48,474 nucleotides of DNA from Chloroflexota bacterium (lineage in GTDB: Bacteria > Chloroflexota > Anaerolineae > Anaerolineales > VGOW01). The stretch covers positions 1 to 48,474 of the forward strand of contig JACPWC010000122.1 of the NCBI GenBank assembly GCA_016197225.1. The letters are read 5' to 3'. Numbering within the stretch: position 1 is the first letter of the stretch; every line of letters begins with the position of its first letter. The translations under genes were made by a program, and so were the position numbers. Below, in pieces: positions 18,913-27,207 of the stretch. A model generated the notes under the pieces. It saw only the letters and a list, made by a program, of their open reading frames with translations, ran no database searches and was not told the origin of the DNA.

Positions 18913-19575
18913 TCAGCGCTTCGCCCACCCCTCTCGCGCCACAAGCTTCGCCGCCTGCCGCCGGTTGACGGCGTGCAGTTTGCTCAAAATGCTTCGGACG
19001 TGAGTTTTGACGGTGTGCAGACTCAGTGAGAGTTGCCGGGCAATTTCTTTGTCGGTCGCGTCAGTGGCAATGAGGTTGAGCACTTCTCGCTCGCGGGGGG
19101 TGAGATCAGGGACAGAGGTAGACGGAGCGTCCGCCGCCGGTCGGTTAGCCAGGTAGGCAAACTCGTCGAGGAGGCGCGTGGCCAGTTTTGGCGGCAGGGC
19201 GGCTTCGCCCTTGAGGGCGCTATGTAAGCCGCGCAAGAAATCGGGCGAGTGTGTGTCTTTGAGCAAGTAACTGCTCGCGCCCGACTTGATCGCTTCAAAC
19301 AATTTTTCATCCTCGTCGTGCACGGTAAGGATGAGAACGCGCGCTTCCGGCCATGCGGCCCGAATCAGGCGTGTGGCTTCCAGGCCGTCGCACACCGGCA
19401 TTTTGATGTCCATGACGATCAGATCGGGGCGCAGGTTGCGGGCCAGAGTCAGGGCTTCAAGTCCATCGGCGGCTTGACCTACTACTTCCAAATCCGGTTG
19501 AGCATTGATTAGACTGGCCAGCCCTTCACGGAGAAGGTCGTTGTCGTCGGCAAGAAGAATGCGAGCCCGGGTCAT
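18913..19575 (-). CDS. NarL/LuxR-type response regulator
   Basis: 220 residues. Receiver domain with the acidic pair DDND, phosphoacceptor D56 in VMDIKMP, switch Thr in ILTVHD and the Lys in YLLKD. The C-terminal LuxR-type helix-turn-helix starts at LTPREREVLNLIA and contains EIARQLSLSLHTVKTHV. Its ATG overlaps the sensor-kinase stop by ATGA, so the pair is translated together. Role: phosphorylated by the NarX-like kinase, it probably activates the downstream enzyme operon; no NarL heptamer sites were identified with confidence. A terminator follows at 18750-18775, so it is transcribed apart from the enzyme genes. Confidence 0.9.
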   Translation of the reverse strand: MTRARILLADDNDLLREGLASLINAQPDLEVVGQAADGLEALTLARNLRPDLIVMDIKMPVCDGLEATRLIRAAWPEARVLILTVHDEDEKLFEAIKSGASSYLLKDTHSPDFLRGLHSALKGEAALPPKLATRLLDEFAYLANRPAADAPSTSVPDLTPREREVLNLIATDATDKEIARQLSLSLHTVKTHVRSILSKLHAVNRRQAAKLVAREGWAKR

Positions 19576-21521
19576 AGAATCACCTCTGAATGGGGCGAGT
19601 TGGCAGTTTGCCGGGCCAGCGGAAAAATAGCGACGACTTTGGTTCCAGCTCCGCAGACAGAATTGACGGCCAGCCGCCCGCCATTACGTTCGGCTCGCGC
19701 CCGCATGATCGCCAGCCCCAAATGTTGATCGGTCTCGACTGCTCCCTGATCAAACCCGCAGCCATCGTCTTCCACAGTGAAGCACGCCTCGCCATTCACT
19801 CGTTCGACTCGCACCCAGACGTGCCTGGCTGAGGCGTGCCGGCGGACATTGGTAAGCGCCTCGCGCACAATATGCGCGACTTGGGATTGGGTGATCGGCG
19901 GCAACGCCAGTGCCGCCGAGTCGGCCATGATCAATTCGATGGGGAGGCCTGAGGTCTCACGGAAATCGGCGATGCAGGTATCGAGGTTTTGAGAAAGCGC
20001 CGGCCCGGTGCTCGTCAACGGCTTTTCTCCGTGGCGCAGTGGTTCGCGAAGGTTGACTAGAGCGGCGCGCACTTGCCCGTAAGCCGTCGCAATGGCCGAC
20101 TTCATCAAATTGAGTTCACCTTCGGCGACGGCAGCGTGCCCGATTGTAAAAACTTCCCTGACTCGATCGGCCTTGAGATTGAGAAAGCCGAGTGTTTGCG
20201 CAAGGTGATCGTGGAGTTCGGCGGCGAGGCGCTCGCGTTCGGCCAGTATGGCCGTCTGTTCGGCCTGCCGCCGCTCCATCTCGGCCAACCGCGCGTTGGC
20301 AATGGCAATGGCCGCCGAGTTCGCCAGCAAAGTGAGGGCGCGTGTTTCATCCTCATCGAAAGGGATGTCGTTTGGATGAATGGCGCACAACGCGCCGAGG
20401 GTATGTTCACCCACCCGGAGCGGCGCGGCGACACACTGGCCGGGCGCATGGGTACTCAGGAAACTGCAACCGGAACAAACGGCCTCGACGACGGTTGTTT
20501 CTCCTGCGCCTACCACCCGCCTTGCCAGCCCGCGCTGGACAGATTGCCGTAGCCCGGCGCGGCCAACGGCTTCATCGTTGCTGGCTACCAGTTCCAGGTA
20601 CTCGCCGTCGGTTGACAGCAGGCAAAGCGAAACGGCCCGAGCGTGCATCAGCGAACTGACGCGGTCGGCTACAGATTGCAAGAGGCGCCCCAGATCAAGT
20701 TGGGCAACGATTTCCTGGCTAAGTTCAAAGGCTGAGGCCAGTTCACTCGTGCGCTGGGCCACGCGCAACTCTAACTGATCGCGCGCAATAGCGATCTCGG
20801 CGCGCATGGTTTCAAGGGCCTGACCCAATTCTCCCAGTTCACCGCCGTCTGTCAACGGAACTGGGTCGGCGAGTTGCCCGCTGGCCATGCGCCGGGCGGT
20901 CACGCCGAGCAGGGCCAGCGGGCTGATGATGCGTTGCCAGGTGAGAAGGTAGCTCCACGCCAGCAACAGCAGAGCGGCGACAAAGAAGAAAAGTTGAATG
21001 AATTGCAGGCGGGTCACTTTGGCTTGGGCGCGAGTTTCGAACACGCTCACTGCCGAATCGAGCTGGGCAAGGATCAGGGGCGATTCTGTTTGCAGGGCTA
21101 CAGCATCCACCGGCTGAAGATGCGCGCGAAATGTTGACCATGTTTGCGCCACCTCGTCGAGTTGCGCGCGGACGGCCATGTCGGGGGCAGGGGAAAGGGT
21201 AACAACACGGCCACCCGGATCGAGAGTCGGCCCGCCATCGCGGAGCGCGAGCAGGGTCCGATCAAAGAGTTGAATAGCGGCGTCGAGTTCGGGGCTGTCG
21301 GGCTGGGCGAGGGCCAGCCAGATCATTTTTTGAGTCAACATGCGCTGGCGGCCCGCCAGGTTGATGACTGTGGCGTCGCTGACCTGCGCCCGTATGGCGA
21401 CGAAGGTGGCGGCAACCGAGCCGCCGACGAGCAACAGAAAGCTGAGAAAGACCGCGCCGAGTTGGGCTTTAATGGATCGAAACATCCGCTGGTGACTGGT
21501 CGGGACTCGCCTGGAGGCCAT
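19572..21521 (-). CDS. NarX-like membrane sensor histidine kinase with a GAF domain
   Basis: 649 residues. Domains in order: transmembrane helix 1 (near 18-40); a periplasmic nitrate/nitrite-type sensor domain with the P-box-like INLAGRQRMLTQKM; transmembrane helix 2 (near 175-195); HAMP (PLALLGVTARRMASGQL, then GELGELGQALETMRAEI); a GAF-like central module with three closely spaced Cys (AVCSGCSF ... PGQC, about 345-360); HisKA_3 with the phosphorylated His in AAELHDHLAQTLG (near 436); and a HATPase domain (HIVREALTNVRRHA, DDGCGFD). Senses probably nitrate or nitrite outside the membrane and phosphorylates the NarL-like partner. An internal ATG at residue 13 is an alternative start; no good ribosome site is seen for either. 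Confidence 0.88.
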   Translation of the reverse strand: MASRRVPTSHQRMFRSIKAQLGAVFLSFLLLVGGSVAATFVAIRAQVSDATVINLAGRQRMLTQKMIWLALAQPDSPELDAAIQLFDRTLLALRDGGPTLDPGGRVVTLSPAPDMAVRAQLDEVAQTWSTFRAHLQPVDAVALQTESPLILAQLDSAVSVFETRAQAKVTRLQFIQLFFFVAALLLLAWSYLLTWQRIISPLALLGVTARRMASGQLADPVPLTDGGELGELGQALETMRAEIAIARDQLELRVAQRTSELASAFELSQEIVAQLDLGRLLQSVADRVSSLMHARAVSLCLLSTDGEYLELVASNDEAVGRAGLRQSVQRGLARRVVGAGETTVVEAVCSGCSFLSTHAPGQCVAAPLRVGEHTLGALCAIHPNDIPFDEDETRALTLLANSAAIAIANARLAEMERRQAEQTAILAERERLAAELHDHLAQTLGFLNLKADRVREVFTIGHAAVAEGELNLMKSAIATAYGQVRAALVNLREPLRHGEKPLTSTGPALSQNLDTCIADFRETSGLPIELIMADSAALALPPITQSQVAHIVREALTNVRRHASARHVWVRVERVNGEACFTVEDDGCGFDQGAVETDQHLGLAIMRARAERNGGRLAVNSVCGAGTKVVAIFPLARQTANSPHSEVIL

Positions 21522-21689: not shown

Positions 21690-21718
21690 TTGACAAAGCC
21701 TGCGTTTTTCTCTATTAT
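21690..21718 (+). promoter_or_regulatory. sigma-70-type promoter of the PadR operon
   Basis: TTGACA at 21690-21695, 17-base spacer, TATTAT at 21713-21718. Predicted start of transcription near 21725, inside the palindrome that follows. Confidence 0.85.
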
Positions 21719-21733
21719 ATCAATCGTTGATAT
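21717..21733. promoter_or_regulatory. palindromic operator candidate for PadR autoregulation
   Basis: ATATCAA-TCG-TTGATAT: two 7-base arms pairing perfectly, overlapping the -10 box and the predicted start site. Position and symmetry fit binding of a dimeric winged-helix repressor that shuts off its own operon. Confidence 0.72.
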
Positions 21734-21746
21734 ATCGGAGACTGAT

Positions 21747-22112
21747 ATGGCTCAGACTGCTGACCCTGAATCGTTGTTGCCGCTCACGCCCGCCGCGTTC
21801 CACATTCTGCTGGCCCTCGCCGACGGCGAGAAGCACGGCTACGGCCTGATGCAGGAAGTGGCCGCCATTAGCGACGGACAGATCAAGCTTGGCCCCGGCA
21901 CGCTCTATGGCACCCTCAAACGGATGCTGGCCGATGGCTGGATCGAAGAGAGCGACGAGCGCCCCGACCCCGAACTCGACGACGAGCGGCGGCGCTACTA
22001 CCGGCTGACCGACTTCGGCGGCAAAGTCGTGCGCGCCGAAGCGGCCCGTCTCGCCCGGCTGGTGGACGCCGCGCGATCCAAAAGGCTTGTTCCGAAACCA
22101 CGCGGAACATGA
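21747..22112 (+). CDS. PadR-family transcriptional regulator
   Basis: 121 residues. The winged helix is clear: LTPAAFHILLALADGEKHGYGLMQEV, then IKLGPGTLYGTLKRMLADGWIEE as the recognition helix and turn, and the wing RRRYYRLTDFGGKVV. It is the short PadR type with little C-terminal dimerisation extension. ATG 21747 follows CGGAG. It leads an apparent operon with two membrane proteins: its TGA at 22110 is 8 bases before the next ATG. The promoter and palindrome upstream suggest autorepression lifted by an unknown ligand. Confidence 0.9.
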   Translation: MAQTADPESLLPLTPAAFHILLALADGEKHGYGLMQEVAAISDGQIKLGPGTLYGTLKRMLADGWIEESDERPDPELDDERRRYYRLTDFGGKVVRAEAARLARLVDAARSKRLVPKPRGT

Positions 22113-22119
22113 AACGCCC

Positions 22120-22899
22120 ATGAAGGACTCGGTGTCGCTATCCCATCGCCTGTATCGCTTCCTGTTGCGGGCCTATCCGCCGTCGTTCTATGCCGAATAC
22201 GGCGACGAGATGGCGCTCACCTTCCGCGATTCGTGCCGCGCGGAATACCGGCGGCATGGCGCGGCCGGTGTCATCGGCCGGTGGGTTGAGACCGTTCCTG
22301 ATTTCATCGTCAGCGTCCTTGACGAACACTCACAGGAGAACTTTCAAATGGCAAAGACGAATCTGGTTCGCATCTTGGCAGTCGCCGGTATCGTGGGCGG
22401 GGCGCTGTGGGTTGCCTTCAGTGTCATTCTGTTCATGCGTCCGCCCGGCATTCCCGGCGGCGCTTCTCAGGAAGCCAGTGACTTTACGCCGTTGCTCTTG
22501 TTTGGGGTGGGGCTGGGCACGGCTGGTTTGCTCGGCGCGTATCTGCGGCCTGGCCGTCAATGGCCTATCTTGTCACGATTGATGTTGCTGCTGGGAGTAG
22601 CAGGAGGTTTGTGGGCCGTAATCAGTCCGGCATTCACTAACAGCTTCTATATCATGCTGGCCGGCTTTCTGGTGCAGGTTGGCGGCCTGGCCCTTGCCGG
22701 CCTGCTATTGCTGGCGCAATCGGCATCGCGGCAGTGGGCGGTCTTGTTCATCGGCCTTGCCGCCGCCATGTTTATGTTCAACACTGAAGACTGGCGCGCA
22801 TTGTTCGGCGTGGTGGCAGGCGCTTTGGTCATTGCGATCTCTGCCCAGGTGCTGGACGGATCACTCAACGGCCAGAACGAACCGCCGGTGGCGGCCTGA
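22120..22899 (+). CDS. PadR-associated membrane protein with N-terminal prefix module
   Basis: 259 residues. N-terminal soluble module (about 1-65) with LYRFLLRAYPPSFYAEYGDEM and LTFRDSCRAEYRR, then six hydrophobic helices. The same prefix recurs at the start of the next gene (YPRHFRDEYAHEM, VFRDTLRE), so both share an ancestral module that is commonly found on membrane proteins and permeases encoded beside PadR regulators. Function unknown; no ABC ATPase gene accompanies it. Start ATG 22120 is preferred because the prefix module begins there; no strong ribosome site, so translation may be coupled to padR. Confidence 0.72.
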   Translation: MKDSVSLSHRLYRFLLRAYPPSFYAEYGDEMALTFRDSCRAEYRRHGAAGVIGRWVETVPDFIVSVLDEHSQENFQMAKTNLVRILAVAGIVGGALWVAFSVILFMRPPGIPGGASQEASDFTPLLLFGVGLGTAGLLGAYLRPGRQWPILSRLMLLLGVAGGLWAVISPAFTNSFYIMLAGFLVQVGGLALAGLLLLAQSASRQWAVLFIGLAAAMFMFNTEDWRALFGVVAGALVIAISAQVLDGSLNGQNEPPVAA

Positions 22900-22939
22900 C
22901 TCGCGCCTCGACCCACCTCAAGAGTTCGGCCCGACTCCT

Positions 22940-24460
22940 ATGAACCAGATCAGCGCAACTTCTCCCGACCGGATCGTCGCCTTCTCCAGCCAGTTCTATT
23001 GCCTGCTCCTCGCCGCTTATCCGCGCCACTTCCGCGACGAGTACGCGCATGAAATGGCGATCGTGTTTCGCGACACGCTGCGCGAGACCTGTCGCAAAGG
23101 CACTGCCGCCCGGCTGATTAGCTTCTGGCTATCCACGCTGATCGATCTCATCGTGACTGCGATCGGAGAACGCCTGGCTGACGGCTCTGGCCCGCGTCGT
23201 TACCTGCGCGGCGTCATCACCGGCCTCATCGCCGGAGTCGTGGGCGGCCTCGTCGCCGGGCTTGGTGCGCGGCTGGCCATGCGCGGGGTGGTGGTTGCCA
23301 GCGGCCTCAGGCCGGCCTTCACCCTCGAAGGCACATTCGTCATCCTCGTCATCTGTGTGATACTTGGCATCCCTGGCGGTCTGGCCTTTGTTGCCCTGCG
23401 GCGCTTCATCCCCGGCGCCGGCCTCTGGCAGGGCTTGAGTTACGGGGTCTTGCTGTTCGTCATCTTCCTGGCGCCGCCTTTTCTCTTTTATCGCGAAGGC
23501 GAAGCGACCCTCGCCTCACCGCTGGTCACGGTCCTGCTCTTCGGCCCGATCACGCTTACCTACGGCCTGGCGGTGCAGTTCACGGTGATGCGCCTTGAAC
23601 GGCGCGATGATTCTGCCCAGCCGCTGTCGGCCACTGAGTTGCCCTCAGCCCTATCGCAAGGGTTGTGGTTCGTCGTGTTCGCCGTCCTGCTCGAACTCGC
23701 GGTGTTGGGCACGGTCTCAATTCTGAATCACTCGCCGCGCATCCCGCCCGGGATTGTCCGCGTCCTGCGCGACGCGCACATTCCGTTCGCCTTCGCCCGT
23801 GACGGAAATGTGTGGCTGGTCAGCCTTACCGCCCTCGGTTACTTTGGCCTGTCCGGCCTCATCTTCTGGCAGCGCACCCGCTCGCCCATGGCCCGCTTCA
23901 CCGCCATCACGCTCCTTCTCTTCGGCGGCGCGCTGTTCAACACCGGCGCAACCTACTATGCCCGCCTCGTGCACGATGTCACCTTCCTACAAATAGTTTT
24001 CAACATTCTGCAAGTGGCCGGCGCAACCTGTCTATTGATTCTGCTATACGTTTTCCCGAATGGCCGTTTCACGATCGCCTGGACTCGCCCCCTGGCCGTC
24101 CTCTGGTTATTGTGGGCGATGGCCTGGGCCGCCGCCACTGCCCTTTGGCCGGAGTCGGTCACCCTGACGATCCTGGCTCTGTTTCTCATAACCGGGGTGG
24201 CGGCGCAGGTGCAACGCTATCGCCAACTCATTTCCGCCGAAGAACGACGACAAACACGTTGGACAGTAGCCGGGTTCGCCGGAGCTGTGGCTGGGTTCGC
24301 CCTAATTGCCGTCGCCCTGGCGCTCATTCCCGACCTGCGCCTGCCAAAAGTGGCCGGCCTTTCTATGACAGCCACGTTTTCGCTCTACATGCTGCCCTGG
24401 CTCTGCATTCCATTGAGCATCGGCTGGGCCATGCGGCGGCATCAACTATGGGCTACATAA
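22940..24460 (+). CDS. large polytopic membrane protein with the same PadR-associated prefix module
   Basis: 506 residues, about 12-13 hydrophobic segments. Residues about 17-75 form the prefix module (FYCLLLAAYPRHFRDEYAHEM, FRDTLRETCRKG, FWLSTLIDLIVTAIGERL) shared with the preceding protein. Afterwards come Gly-rich helices (LIAGVVGGLVAGLGARLAM) and, in the second half, a block ending in a charged loop (QLISAEERRQTRWTVAG). That loop resembles the region before the kinase in membrane sensor proteins, but no kinase domain follows. Possible roles: membrane sensor or permease-like partner. ATG 22940 lies 40 bases after the previous stop. Confidence 0.7.
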   Translation: MNQISATSPDRIVAFSSQFYCLLLAAYPRHFRDEYAHEMAIVFRDTLRETCRKGTAARLISFWLSTLIDLIVTAIGERLADGSGPRRYLRGVITGLIAGVVGGLVAGLGARLAMRGVVVASGLRPAFTLEGTFVILVICVILGIPGGLAFVALRRFIPGAGLWQGLSYGVLLFVIFLAPPFLFYREGEATLASPLVTVLLFGPITLTYGLAVQFTVMRLERRDDSAQPLSATELPSALSQGLWFVVFAVLLELAVLGTVSILNHSPRIPPGIVRVLRDAHIPFAFARDGNVWLVSLTALGYFGLSGLIFWQRTRSPMARFTAITLLLFGGALFNTGATYYARLVHDVTFLQIVFNILQVAGATCLLILLYVFPNGRFTIAWTRPLAVLWLLWAMAWAAATALWPESVTLTILALFLITGVAAQVQRYRQLISAEERRQTRWTVAGFAGAVAGFALIAVALALIPDLRLPKVAGLSMTATFSLYMLPWLCIPLSIGWAMRRHQLWAT

Positions 24461-24510
24461 GCAAAGAAGACAATCTGTTCGACCTGGTTTTGGCCCAAAT
24501 GCGTCAAAAC

Positions 24511-24545
24511 AAAGGAGCGCAGAAACTCTGCGCTCCTTTGTTTTT
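24511..24545. terminator. bidirectional Rho-independent terminator between the PadR operon and clpC
   Basis: AAAGGAGCGCAGA (24511-24523), loop AAC, TCTGCGCTCCTTT (24527-24539), then G and TTTTT on the plus strand; on the minus strand the stem is followed by GTTTTG. It serves the two convergent units. Confidence 0.88.
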
Positions 24546-24569: not shown

Positions 24570-27116
24570 CTAAAGGGGTGAAAGAATATCCGCGATCTCT
24601 CTCTCAGCGTTTCCTTCTTCGCCGCCGTCGGTCGCCCCTTCAGCCCGGATCGAGATCTCACCATCCTTGAAGTCAACGTAAATTGTGCTCCCCGACGTGG
24701 CGTGGGTGCGAAGCAGGGCGTCCGACACGCCGTCTTCCACCTTGTTCTGAATCACCCGGCGCAGAGGGCGAGCGCCGTAATCGGGGTTGTAACCGGCGTC
24801 GGCCAAATGCTGTTTGGCCTCGTCCGACACTTCCAACTTAAGTTCGCGCTCGGCCAATCGCTCGCGCACCTTGTCAAGTTCCAGGTCAACGATTTGAACG
24901 ATCTCGGCCTTGTTGAGCGAGCGGAAGACCACCACCCCGTCCACCCGGTTGAGAAACTCGGGGCGGAAACTCTTCTTAAGTTCCTCAGTCAGTTTCTTGT
25001 GCATGTCGGTGTACGACTCTTGCTCGGCCCTGGCCTCGTCGCGCTTCATCGAAAAACCCAGCGCCGCCTGGCGCTTGATCATGTCGGCGCCGACGTTGGA
25101 GGTCATGACGATCATCGCGTTGCGGAAGCTCACCTTCTTGCCGCGCGCGTCCGAAAGCTGGCCTTCTTCCATGATTTGCAGAAGCATGTTGTGGGCTTCG
25201 GGATGGGCCTTTTCGATCTCGTCAAAGACGACGATCGAATACGGGCGGCGGCGCAGGCCTTCGGTCAACTGGCCGGCGTCTTCGTAGCCCACGTAGCCGG
25301 GGGGAGCGCCGACGAGGCGGGAGACGCTGTGCCGCTCCATGAATTCCGACATGTCTAATTGAATAATAGCATCTTCACTGCCGAACATGAAGGCGGCCAG
25401 GGCTTTGGTCAGCTCGGTTTTGCCGACTCCGGTGGGGCCGAGGAAAATAAACGAGCCGATGGGGCGCTTGGGGTCTTTGAGGCCGGCGCGGGCGCGGCGG
25501 ACGGCGCGAGAAATGGCGCTGATGGCTTCATCCTGGCCGATGATGCGTTTATGCAGATCCTCTTCCATATGAAGCAGGCGCTCGGACTCTTCGGTGGCAA
25601 TTTGAACTACCGGAATGCCCGTCCACATGCCCAACACTTCGGCGATGTCGGCGGCGCTGACGACCGGCATGGAGGCTTGATCCCAGCCGGCGCGCAGTTG
25701 GCTGAGTTTTTCTTCAAGTGAGGTTTCGCGAGCCAGCAGTTCCTGAGCGTCGTCATAACGCGCTTCTTCGACGGCAATGGCCCGCTCTTCACGCACCAGG
25801 CGCAGGTCGGACATGGTGTCTTTGAAACTCTTGGCTTCGGGACTCTTGTACATTCGCACCCGCGACCCGGCTTCGTCAATCAGGTCAATGGCCTTGTCGG
25901 GCAGGAAGCGGTCGGGCACGTAGCGGGCCGAAAGGTGAGCGGCGGCGTCAATGGCGTCGTCGGTGATGGTGAGCTTGTGGTGATCTTCGTAGCGCGATTT
26001 GATGCCGTGCAAAATGCTGATCGTCTCTTCGATGGTCGGCTCGTCCACGGTGACTGGCTGGAAGCGGCGCTCAAGGGCGGCGTCGCTTTCAATGTGCTTA
26101 CGGTATTCGTTGAGGGTGGTCGCGCCGATGACTTGAATATGCCCCCGTGAGAGGGCGGGCTTGAGGATGTTGGCGGCGTCCACGGAAGAGCCGGCTGAAC
26201 CGGCGCCGACCAGCATGTGAACTTCGTCAATAAACAAGATCGAGTTCGAGATCTTGACTTCTTCGATCACGCGCTTGAGTCGCTCTTCAAACTGGCCGCG
26301 ATACATGGTTCCGGCCACGAGCGAGCCGACGTCGAGTTGCAGGACGCGGCGGCCAAGCAGGGGTTCGGGGGTGTCGCCGGCAATGATGCGCTGGGCCAAA
26401 CCTTCGACGATGGCCGTCTTGCCCACGCCTGGCTCGCCGATGAGGGCCGGGTTGTTCTTGGTGCGGCGGGCGAGGATTTGAATGACGCGCTCGATCTCGC
26501 TCTGGCGGCCAATGACCGGGTCAAGCTTGTTGTCCTCAGCCAGGGCGGTGAGGTCGGTAGCAAGCTGATCGACAAGCGGCGTTTTGCTCTTGGTGTCTTT
26601 CTTCTTCTCAGGCGCGCCGCCGGCGGTTTGCTTTTGCGGGGTGGTTGAACTGGGCGTGGCAGGTTGCTGGGGATTCTCTTGCAGAACGCGCCGGGTCTGG
26701 CGGCGAATCTGTTCGGGCGAGATGCCAAGTTTATTGAGGACATCAATGGCCACGCCTTCATTGTGGCGCACCAGGCCAAGCAGGATGTGCTCGGTGCTGA
26801 TGTAATGCTGGCCCATGCGTTTGGCTTCGTCAATGGCCAATTCCAGGGTGCGGCGGGTTCCGGGGGCCAGATCGATCCTGGCCGGCTTGTTGCGTTGGCC
26901 GGGGCCGCTGAGGCGTTCGACCATCTCCTGCACACGCCGTTGTTCAAGTCCTAGCTCACGCAAAACGCGCCCGGCCACGCCGCCTTCTTCGCGGATCAGG
27001 CCGAGTAGTAAATGCTCGGTGCCAATGTAGTTATGTCGCAGGCGTTCGGCTTCTTCCTGAGCCAGGCTCAACACCCGGCGCGCTCGTTGGGTGAACCGCT
27101 GCATTTTATCGGTCAC
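24570..27116 (-). CDS. clpC: ATP-dependent Clp protease ATP-binding subunit ClpC
   Basis: 848 residues. Two Clp N repeats ([17 protein letters not shown] near 33-48 and [17 protein letters not shown] near 108-124), a Lys/Pro-rich linker, first AAA+ domain with Walker A GEPGVGKT near 227 and a [10 protein letters not shown] Walker B, a UVR-like coiled middle region ([15 protein letters not shown]), and second AAA+ domain with GPTGVGKTE and [10 protein letters not shown], then the ClpB-D2 small domain. Unfolds substrates for ClpP. A GTG start at 27116 is chosen because GGGAGG lies 8 bases upstream; ATG at residue 5 is the alternative. An inverted repeat upstream (27208-27235) may be a stress operator; clpP is not in the window. 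Confidence 0.93.
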
Positions 27117-27207
27117 GGATTTATCCTCCCGTTACTTTCAAAAACAAAACTGCTTCAATGGTAATCTTCGCCCCTCATCCTTTCAATGTCATTCGGTTAG
27201 ATGAGAG

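Follow-up and report, generated by a model that had tools for sequence, protein, structure and literature searches.

The operon and its regulatory region

Contig JACPWC010000122.1 of a Chloroflexota bacterium (assembly GCA_016197225.1) provided the 48,474-nucleotide stretch of DNA analysed here, which we call the window. Positions 21690 to 24544 hold a compact operon consisting, in order, of a promoter, a gene for a PadR-family regulator (padR), genes for two proteins that we call P1 and P2, and an inverted repeat. P1 and P2 begin with a common module of approximately their first 70–80 residues. With modest confidence, we read this locus as a self-controlled membrane-signalling operon that resembles the HAAS-PadR systems but in which a different, uncatalogued adaptor of three helices would couple membrane sensing to an autorepressor. 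The features of the operon are as follows.

21690–21718, + strand: sigma-70-type promoter, TTGACA-17-TATTAT, near-consensus
21717–21733: operator palindrome 1, ATATCAATCGTTGATAT (ATATC-N7-GATAT), exact, unique in the genome and conserved in relatives
21732–21748: operator palindrome 2, ATATCGGAGACTGATAT, overlapping palindrome 1 with a 15-base-pair period and reaching the padR start codon; the doubling is also found in relatives
21747–22112, + strand: padR, 121 amino acids, PadR-family regulator, presumed repressor
22120–22899, + strand: P1, 259 amino acids, N-terminal module (residues ~1–73) and six predicted long helices
22120–22353 (to ~22362), + strand: P1 module, three helices in the predicted model
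22940–24460, + strand: P2, 506 amino acids, module, further membrane segments and a C-terminal membrane domain (residues ~236–505)
22940–23194, + strand: P2 module
23645–24454, + strand: P2 C-terminal membrane domain, homologous to N-terminal parts of kinases and phosphatases
24506–24544: perfect inverted repeat of 18 base pairs with a 3-nucleotide loop, between P2 and a convergent clpC-like gene

A first-pass annotation of this DNA, made from the sequence alone, had described a consensus promoter, a perfect palindrome over the start site and two consecutive membrane proteins with a common N-terminus. The promoter matches 11 of 12 consensus positions, and palindrome 1 is exact and overlaps the −10 element and the expected start point. 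The palindrome is not single, as had been thought, since a second, overlapping one had been missed; jointly the two run from the last part of the −10 element across the expected start point into the opening bases of padR. Judged by eye, many relatives have a comparable arrangement of TTGACA and a TA-rich element upstream. The six long helices of P1 are taken as membrane helices from the predicted structure. The inverted repeat probably serves as a terminator, judging by its sequence; a terminator scan of the window did not list it, and its T-run lies inside the stem.

The PadR protein scores 58 bits against PF03551 (cut-off 27), identifying a PadR winged helix, while its 60.2 bits against TIGR03433 (padR_acidobact) lie below the cut-off of 101.8. 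Its length fits the PadR-s2 type, which has approximately 110 residues and a single C-terminal helix. Sequence matches in the Protein Data Bank (PDB) are PadR-like chains (best E 2.6e-9) and include 3f8b, which we take to be LmrR. The genome contains three padR genes, two of which are followed by module genes.

The operator within the genome and among relatives

To place the operator in its genomic context we searched the assembly, which comprises 4.8 Mb in 126 contigs and is 97.95% complete. The pattern ATATC-N7-GATAT occurs exactly at just two positions, 21717 and 21732, and the reversed pattern at none; palindrome 1, written ATATCAANNNTTGATAT, is the sole exact copy genome-wide. Further targets of this PadR were rejected, as there is no exact site elsewhere. 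The looser pattern TATATC-N7-GATATA with two mismatches returned 33 matches against 26 for the reversed control and is thus uninformative, and a two-mismatch site over the clpC start (27105–27123) belongs to the same chance-level class. A near-double operator on contig C31 sits within a reading frame. A paralogous operon on contig C66 of the same genome, with two module genes (L081; L numbers denote loci), carries TATGTC-N7-GACATA, which has equal geometry with one letter changed.

The comparison among relatives used the upstream regions of 64 padR genes from module loci, including that of the window; the loci share a common descent. Of the 64 regions, 26 contain ATATC-N7-GATAT exactly, and 41 contain it when up to one mismatch is allowed. 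In controls for exact sites, spacers of 3–6 and 8–12 gave 0–1 matches and shuffled sequences gave 0.05, while no match lay in the initial part of padR. The double form was found exactly in seven upstream regions, with one mismatch in 19 and with up to three in 33. The site is therefore kept at many, though not all, related loci. Autoregulation, as the first-pass annotation had suggested, appears likely on these sequence grounds, the only exact sites of the genome lying in the operon's own promoter and the site being conserved at other padR-module loci.

When 301 genomes of the phylum were searched blindly for the double operator, allowing one mismatch, 21 of them gave a total of 30 matches at 29 places, and the reversed control gave none among the matches listed. 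By our own sorting, 14 of the 29 places, including the window, lie directly upstream of padR and a module gene (in one, G098, the module match is weak at 2e-4). One precedes a PadR-less gene in which the module is fused to a PP2C phosphatase domain (L077). Another precedes a PadR of a different type, with PF03551 and PF10400 (L186), and a further one (G091) is identical in its letters to that site. One place is beside a small protein that appears by eye to be membrane-bound, and two are within genes. The remaining nine precede other genes, starting 9 to 309 nucleotides from the operator, in six genomes that all also have module loci: four HAD hydrolases, two ABC transporters with ATPase domains, which belong to two other genomes, a histidine phosphatase, a GNAT acetyltransferase and a flavin-reductase-like protein. 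The HAD hydrolase genes (L179, L181, L182, L184) form a recurrent candidate trans target of the PadR family.

The type of operator is also reflected in the regulator. In the TLY region of PadR, which we take from general knowledge of PadR structures to be the recognition helix, the residue before TLY was G in 36, S in two, T in one, A in one and unread in one of the PadRs with an ATATC site. In those without the site it was T in 12, G in six, A in two, S in one and unread in two, the T group consisting mostly of related proteins; another locus was left out of the count because its upstream sequence was too short. By these counts, the recognition-helix residue covaries with operator type. Among PadR-less exceptions, the operator is kept before the module gene of L077, as an exact double, and of L097, with two mismatches. 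Beyond the phylum, a plasmid of the cyanobacterium Allocoleopsis franciscana carries padR, a module gene and an exact ATATC-N7-GATAT.

A module of three predicted helices paired with PadR

The N-termini of P1 and P2 are 43% identical over 65 residues (E 5e-17), whereas their tails are unrelated (best E 0.19), which rules out duplication of a whole gene. In the predicted model of the P1 module (m41d96c07ad46) helices span residues 2–16, 21–46 and 48–79, with a pLDDT confidence value of 89.4. A profile built from 16 modules matched in at least 55 of the 301 genomes, a lower bound given that 18 candidates were scored for most genomes. The module reading frame was recovered at 69 of 70 loci examined, and a padR gene lies upstream on the same strand within 400 nucleotides at 64 of these 69, the window operon excluded. 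Many of the loci come from few families. Outside the phylum, padR followed by a module protein was found on a Gemmatirosa kalamazoonensis plasmid and on the Allocoleopsis plasmid, so that the pairing is present in Gemmatimonadota and Cyanobacteriota records besides Chloroflexota. The profile search and tally of neighbours thus bear out the part of the first-pass annotation that proposed an adaptor domain, in that the module behaves like one; it is not a local duplication, as had been supposed, but widespread on unrelated tails.

Several loci carry tandem module genes behind one padR, two in L014, L015, L016 and L081 and three in L069 and L126, and in L111 one module gene stands before padR and one after. 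The three module proteins of L069 (2550–4206) are short, and one of them seems to carry a zinc ribbon.

Searches for known families were negative. Scanned at E <= 10, 80 modules gave no convincing match to Pfam (24 families listed, most matches above 0.1 having been filtered) and no family match in NCBIfam (nine families listed). HAAS (PF22564) and perm_prefix_1 (NF038403) were rejected as identities for the module, being absent from the former and the latter list respectively. Profile comparison with 19 HAAS sequences was not significant (best P 0.02, probability 2.4%). The GxP motif is absent from the consensus of the 80 modules, which has GxxGxxxLWxxxLxDL instead. In the PDB, Foldseek gave a best E of 4.6 for the module fold; VIA-align on nine chains gave Z scores of at most 5.7, to unrelated helical bundles, with the DUF1048 entry 2O3L not among the matches listed; and the nearest sequence had an E of 0.5, with none found by the 16-row profile. 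A literature search, which left subscription papers mostly uncovered, found no paper describing the module, and papers on HAAS were closest.

There is a weak resemblance to LYR-type proteins: PF13233 matched three of the 80 modules (best E 0.077), one score being 13.7 bits against a cut-off of 22.3, and Z scores of 4.0–4.4 were obtained with the complex I chains 6zr2_V, 7a23_R and 7a24_R, which we take to be LYR subunits. That the module is a bacterial LYR-like bundle reading acyl chains is a bolder and much less likely reading than the separate adaptor class proposed below.

Variable tails

The tails of the 80 module proteins fall into 31 groups (blastp at 1e-6), among which distant kinship of membrane tails is possible. 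At E <= 0.001 Pfam assigned PP2C to 12 tails and Clp_N to four; signal peptidase S26, DUF1835, a zinc ribbon and a glyoxalase were each found once, together with a few weak matches to membrane families. FtsX, MacB_PCD or ABC domains were found by Pfam in none of the 80. The PP2C fusions are L070, L076, L077, L082, L083, L087, L089, L090, L094, L095, L097 and L100, of which L077 and L097 have no neighbouring padR. The Clp_N-repeat fusions (L072, L079, L096, L109) apparently lack an AAA+ part. A full clpC-like gene is convergent to the window operon, next to this theme of Clp_N fusions, which may be coincidence.

P1 and P2 gave nothing convincing against Pfam and NCBIfam, the best match being to an enzyme model at E 0.024, far below its cut-off, and the P1 model found no solved structure with Foldseek at E <= 0.001. 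Assignment of either protein as a known transporter or permease was accordingly rejected. Residues ~236–505 of P2 match membrane domains at 27–37% identity (best E 2.5e-17). Ten proteins sharing this domain were scanned by Pfam and six carry signalling domains: Ser/Thr kinases (L010, L028), a GAF domain with a SpoIIE phosphatase (L012), a histidine kinase with HisKA_3/HATPase (L033), and GAF domains (L009 and, below the cut-off, L026). The other four (L011, L013, L019, L029) had no Pfam match. On this homology the P2 tail resembles the input part of a signalling protein rather than a transporter. Four matches to the same domain lie within approximately 10 kb on contig C71 of the window genome, at ~42.8–53.2 kb.

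Proteins of each type also occur without the other. A P1-like protein follows padR in L018 and L020, and a P2-like protein (53% identical) in L008, with no second module gene in the 1.0–1.5 kb examined downstream. Because these loci have a single partner, it is probable that a P1-like or a P2-like protein can each suffice as the sole partner of PadR.

Comparison with known PadR systems

The nearest described arrangement is the HAAS-PadR dyad, in which a stand-alone PadR is encoded beside a short three-helix domain, HAAS (HTH-associated alpha-helical signalling domain), carried on membrane parts of several kinds, among them VanZ and FtsX/MacB (PMC11237479, mSystems 2024). In that paper the dyad is proposed as an alternative to two-component systems, DUF1048 and DUF1700 are counted as members of the HAAS superfamily, and a change in the sensor is proposed to release or reconfigure the transcription factor. 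The module loci are similar in having a stand-alone PadR, three predicted helices and varied membrane tails, but the module has no match to PF22564 or any other Pfam family, no GxP kink motif of the third helix and no significant profile similarity. The promoters differ too. At HAAS loci of relatives PadR is also present in 24 of 25 cases, yet the padR upstream regions of true HAAS loci contain ATATC-N7-GATAT exactly in none of 21 and with one mismatch in two of 21, and an ACTGT/ACAGT pair in eight of 21.

A second comparison is offered by the Gemmatirosa locus (L194, 2448–8682), where two adjacent, divergent PadR–ADOP permease pairs (TIGR03434) differ in their prefix: one permease carries perm_prefix_1 (NF038403) and the other, in the same place directly after PadR, the module. 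The permeases there have MacB_PCD/FtsX domains, unlike P1 and P2, and the window PadR scores under the threshold of TIGR03433. The module thus stands where HAAS and perm_prefix_1 prefixes stand and probably works like them, but it is filed as a member of neither family.

Autorepressed PadR operons are also known from Listeria, where LftR-LftS, LltR-Lmo0600 and LstR have DUF1048/DUF1700 or another membrane partner (PMC4517056, PMC6624303). The window differs in that the partner is an uncatalogued module, in two copies, on two unrelated membrane proteins. In the published work on bcPadR1, the regulator and a neighbouring membrane-protein gene are induced by a membrane-active peptide that did not alter binding by bcPadR1, and operators of LmrR and bcPadR1 (PadR subfamily 2) consist of ATGT/ACAT inverted motifs with a spacer of approximately 8 or more (PMC3506622). 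The window PadR is similarly small, but its operator is ATATC-N7-GATAT and doubled.

The first-pass annotation had noted the absence of an ABC ATPase and concluded that the system differs from known PadR-controlled exporters. Indeed the gene list and the Pfam and NCBIfam scans reveal no ABC ATPase in the operon, the exact operators are the operon's own, unlike LmrR-type control of an exporter, and P1 and P2 match no transporter family. Neither of the two outcomes that this annotation had named as refuting it was observed, the palindrome being conserved at many, if not all, related loci. The contrast does not extend to the family as a whole, however, since the module occurs on the Gemmatirosa ADOP permease and the operator precedes ABC transporter genes in two genomes. 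Compared with what that annotation described, the finding is richer in how the operon is regulated and in how widely its parts occur, and its contrast with exporter systems is less exceptional.

A model for signalling and its alternatives

In the model we prefer, PadR dimers would occupy both overlapping sites, which are themselves conserved, over the −10 element and start point and so keep padR-P1-P2 off. P1 and P2 would be embedded in the membrane, each with its three-helix module facing the cytoplasm. Either the six helices of P1 or the C-terminal domain of P2 might sense a membrane or envelope change, the P2 domain being homologous to those that precede histidine kinase, Ser/Thr kinase and SpoIIE phosphatase parts in relatives; the module would then capture or reshape PadR, which would leave the operator and induce the operon. 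The direction of this response and the nature of the stimulus we infer. In larger, Ktedonobacteria-type genomes the same operator is also found ahead of other genes. Because the only exact operators of the window genome are in the operon's own promoter, it is probable that P1 and P2 serve as effectors or as an amplifier, besides any sensing.

The anatomy of the operon and its operator are well supported, while repression and contact between PadR and the module are inferred. The model draws its support from the frequency with which PadR precedes the module across loci, although the window genome has just three padR genes, two of them followed by module genes; from the N7 spacing, exact in 26 of 64 promoters against 0–1 with other spacers and 0 of 21 at HAAS loci; and from the recurrence of the double operator in 21 of 301 genomes, and its retention by the PadR-less L077 and L097. 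It is supported further by the covariation of the recognition-helix residue and the equal geometry of the C66 paralogue, by the varied tails and the kinship of the P2 tail with membrane parts of kinases and phosphatases, and by the Gemmatirosa exchange of module for perm_prefix_1 and the cyanobacterial plasmid with all three elements.

Several observations weigh against it. A pure sensor in this genome would regulate just itself, as the sole exact operators are the operon's own. No PadR is adjacent at five of 69 module loci, and of the PadR-less loci L071, L074 and L110 are also without operator by our test. Twenty-three of 64 padR promoters have no ATATC site even at one mismatch, and at that tolerance a spacer of 9 is also found in 28 of 64, which we tentatively read as a register effect of a common GATATATC core. 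The counts of operators and pairings are not independent, given shared descent. Eleven of the 12 PP2C module proteins have no predicted membrane segment, so that a membrane signal is not universal. Finally, in Listeria, deletion of lftS, encoding the DUF1048 partner, left LftR repression of lieAB unchanged (PMC4517056); by analogy, this fits an anti-repressor that acts on signal alone, without being proof of one.

An alternative that we consider unlikely is that the locus is a detoxification operon, in which an LmrR-like PadR is opened by a ligand, P1 and P2 are exporter-like or membrane-protecting effectors, and the module is a targeting or assembly segment that makes no contact with PadR. 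It would account for the PadR-like chains, 3f8b among them, that are the solved relatives of the regulator and for the operators that two other genomes carry ahead of ABC transporter genes, and the confinement of exact operators to the operon means that its products must themselves matter. It is less easily reconciled with P1 and P2 matching no transporter family, with the P1 model matching no solved structure at E <= 0.001, or with the module standing behind PadR even on PP2C or Clp_N proteins, which a membrane-targeting role does not explain.

A still less probable alternative is that the module binds PadR as a corepressor or tether, holding it at the membrane or stabilising it, with stress breaking the complex; the sign of the circuit would then be opposite to that of the anti-repressor model. 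The pairing and operator data are identical under this arrangement and do not fix the sign. Against it stand the release or reconfiguration of the transcription factor after a sensor change that is proposed for the HAAS dyad (PMC11237479) and the repression by LftR reported without LftS (PMC4517056). That PadR and the module have simply travelled together, in an operon or on a mobile element, and have no joint mechanism is very unlikely, for although the loci are related by descent, many from few families, so that 64 of 69 are not independent cases, the tails have been replaced many times while PadR and module stayed paired (31 tail groups in 80 proteins), the PadR-less module gene of L077 keeps the operator, and the pairing recurs in Gemmatimonadota and Cyanobacteriota records.

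If the anti-repressor model is extended, the module might represent an adaptor class of its own, so far without a name, that couples receptors to repressors and occurs in Chloroflexota, Gemmatimonadota and Cyanobacteriota at least. It would allow membrane receptor domains found elsewhere on histidine kinases, Ser/Thr kinases and SpoIIE phosphatases to act directly on a DNA-bound repressor without phosphorylation, with the PP2C and Clp_N versions linking PadR to phosphatase signalling and proteostasis; this wider proposal is possible, but we hold it only tentatively. The pairing of PadR and module looks like an overlooked variant of the recently proposed alternative to two-component systems, and it bears on how small PadR repressors respond to membrane damage without a known ligand. 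The family provides a sharp test, with one conserved module, one conserved and often doubled operator, and interchangeable parts, one of them common to kinases. Should PadR prove to bind the module, sequence would allow a class of membrane signalling that dispenses with phosphorylation to be assigned, and many hypothetical Chloroflexota membrane proteins would gain a likely function.

Surroundings of the operon

PADLOC found no match to a defence system. The gene following P2, clpC-like by eye, occupies 24570–27116 on the opposite strand, convergent to the operon. On the other side, 18913–21521 on the − strand encodes a response regulator and a histidine kinase, identified by eye, which are divergent to the PadR operon.

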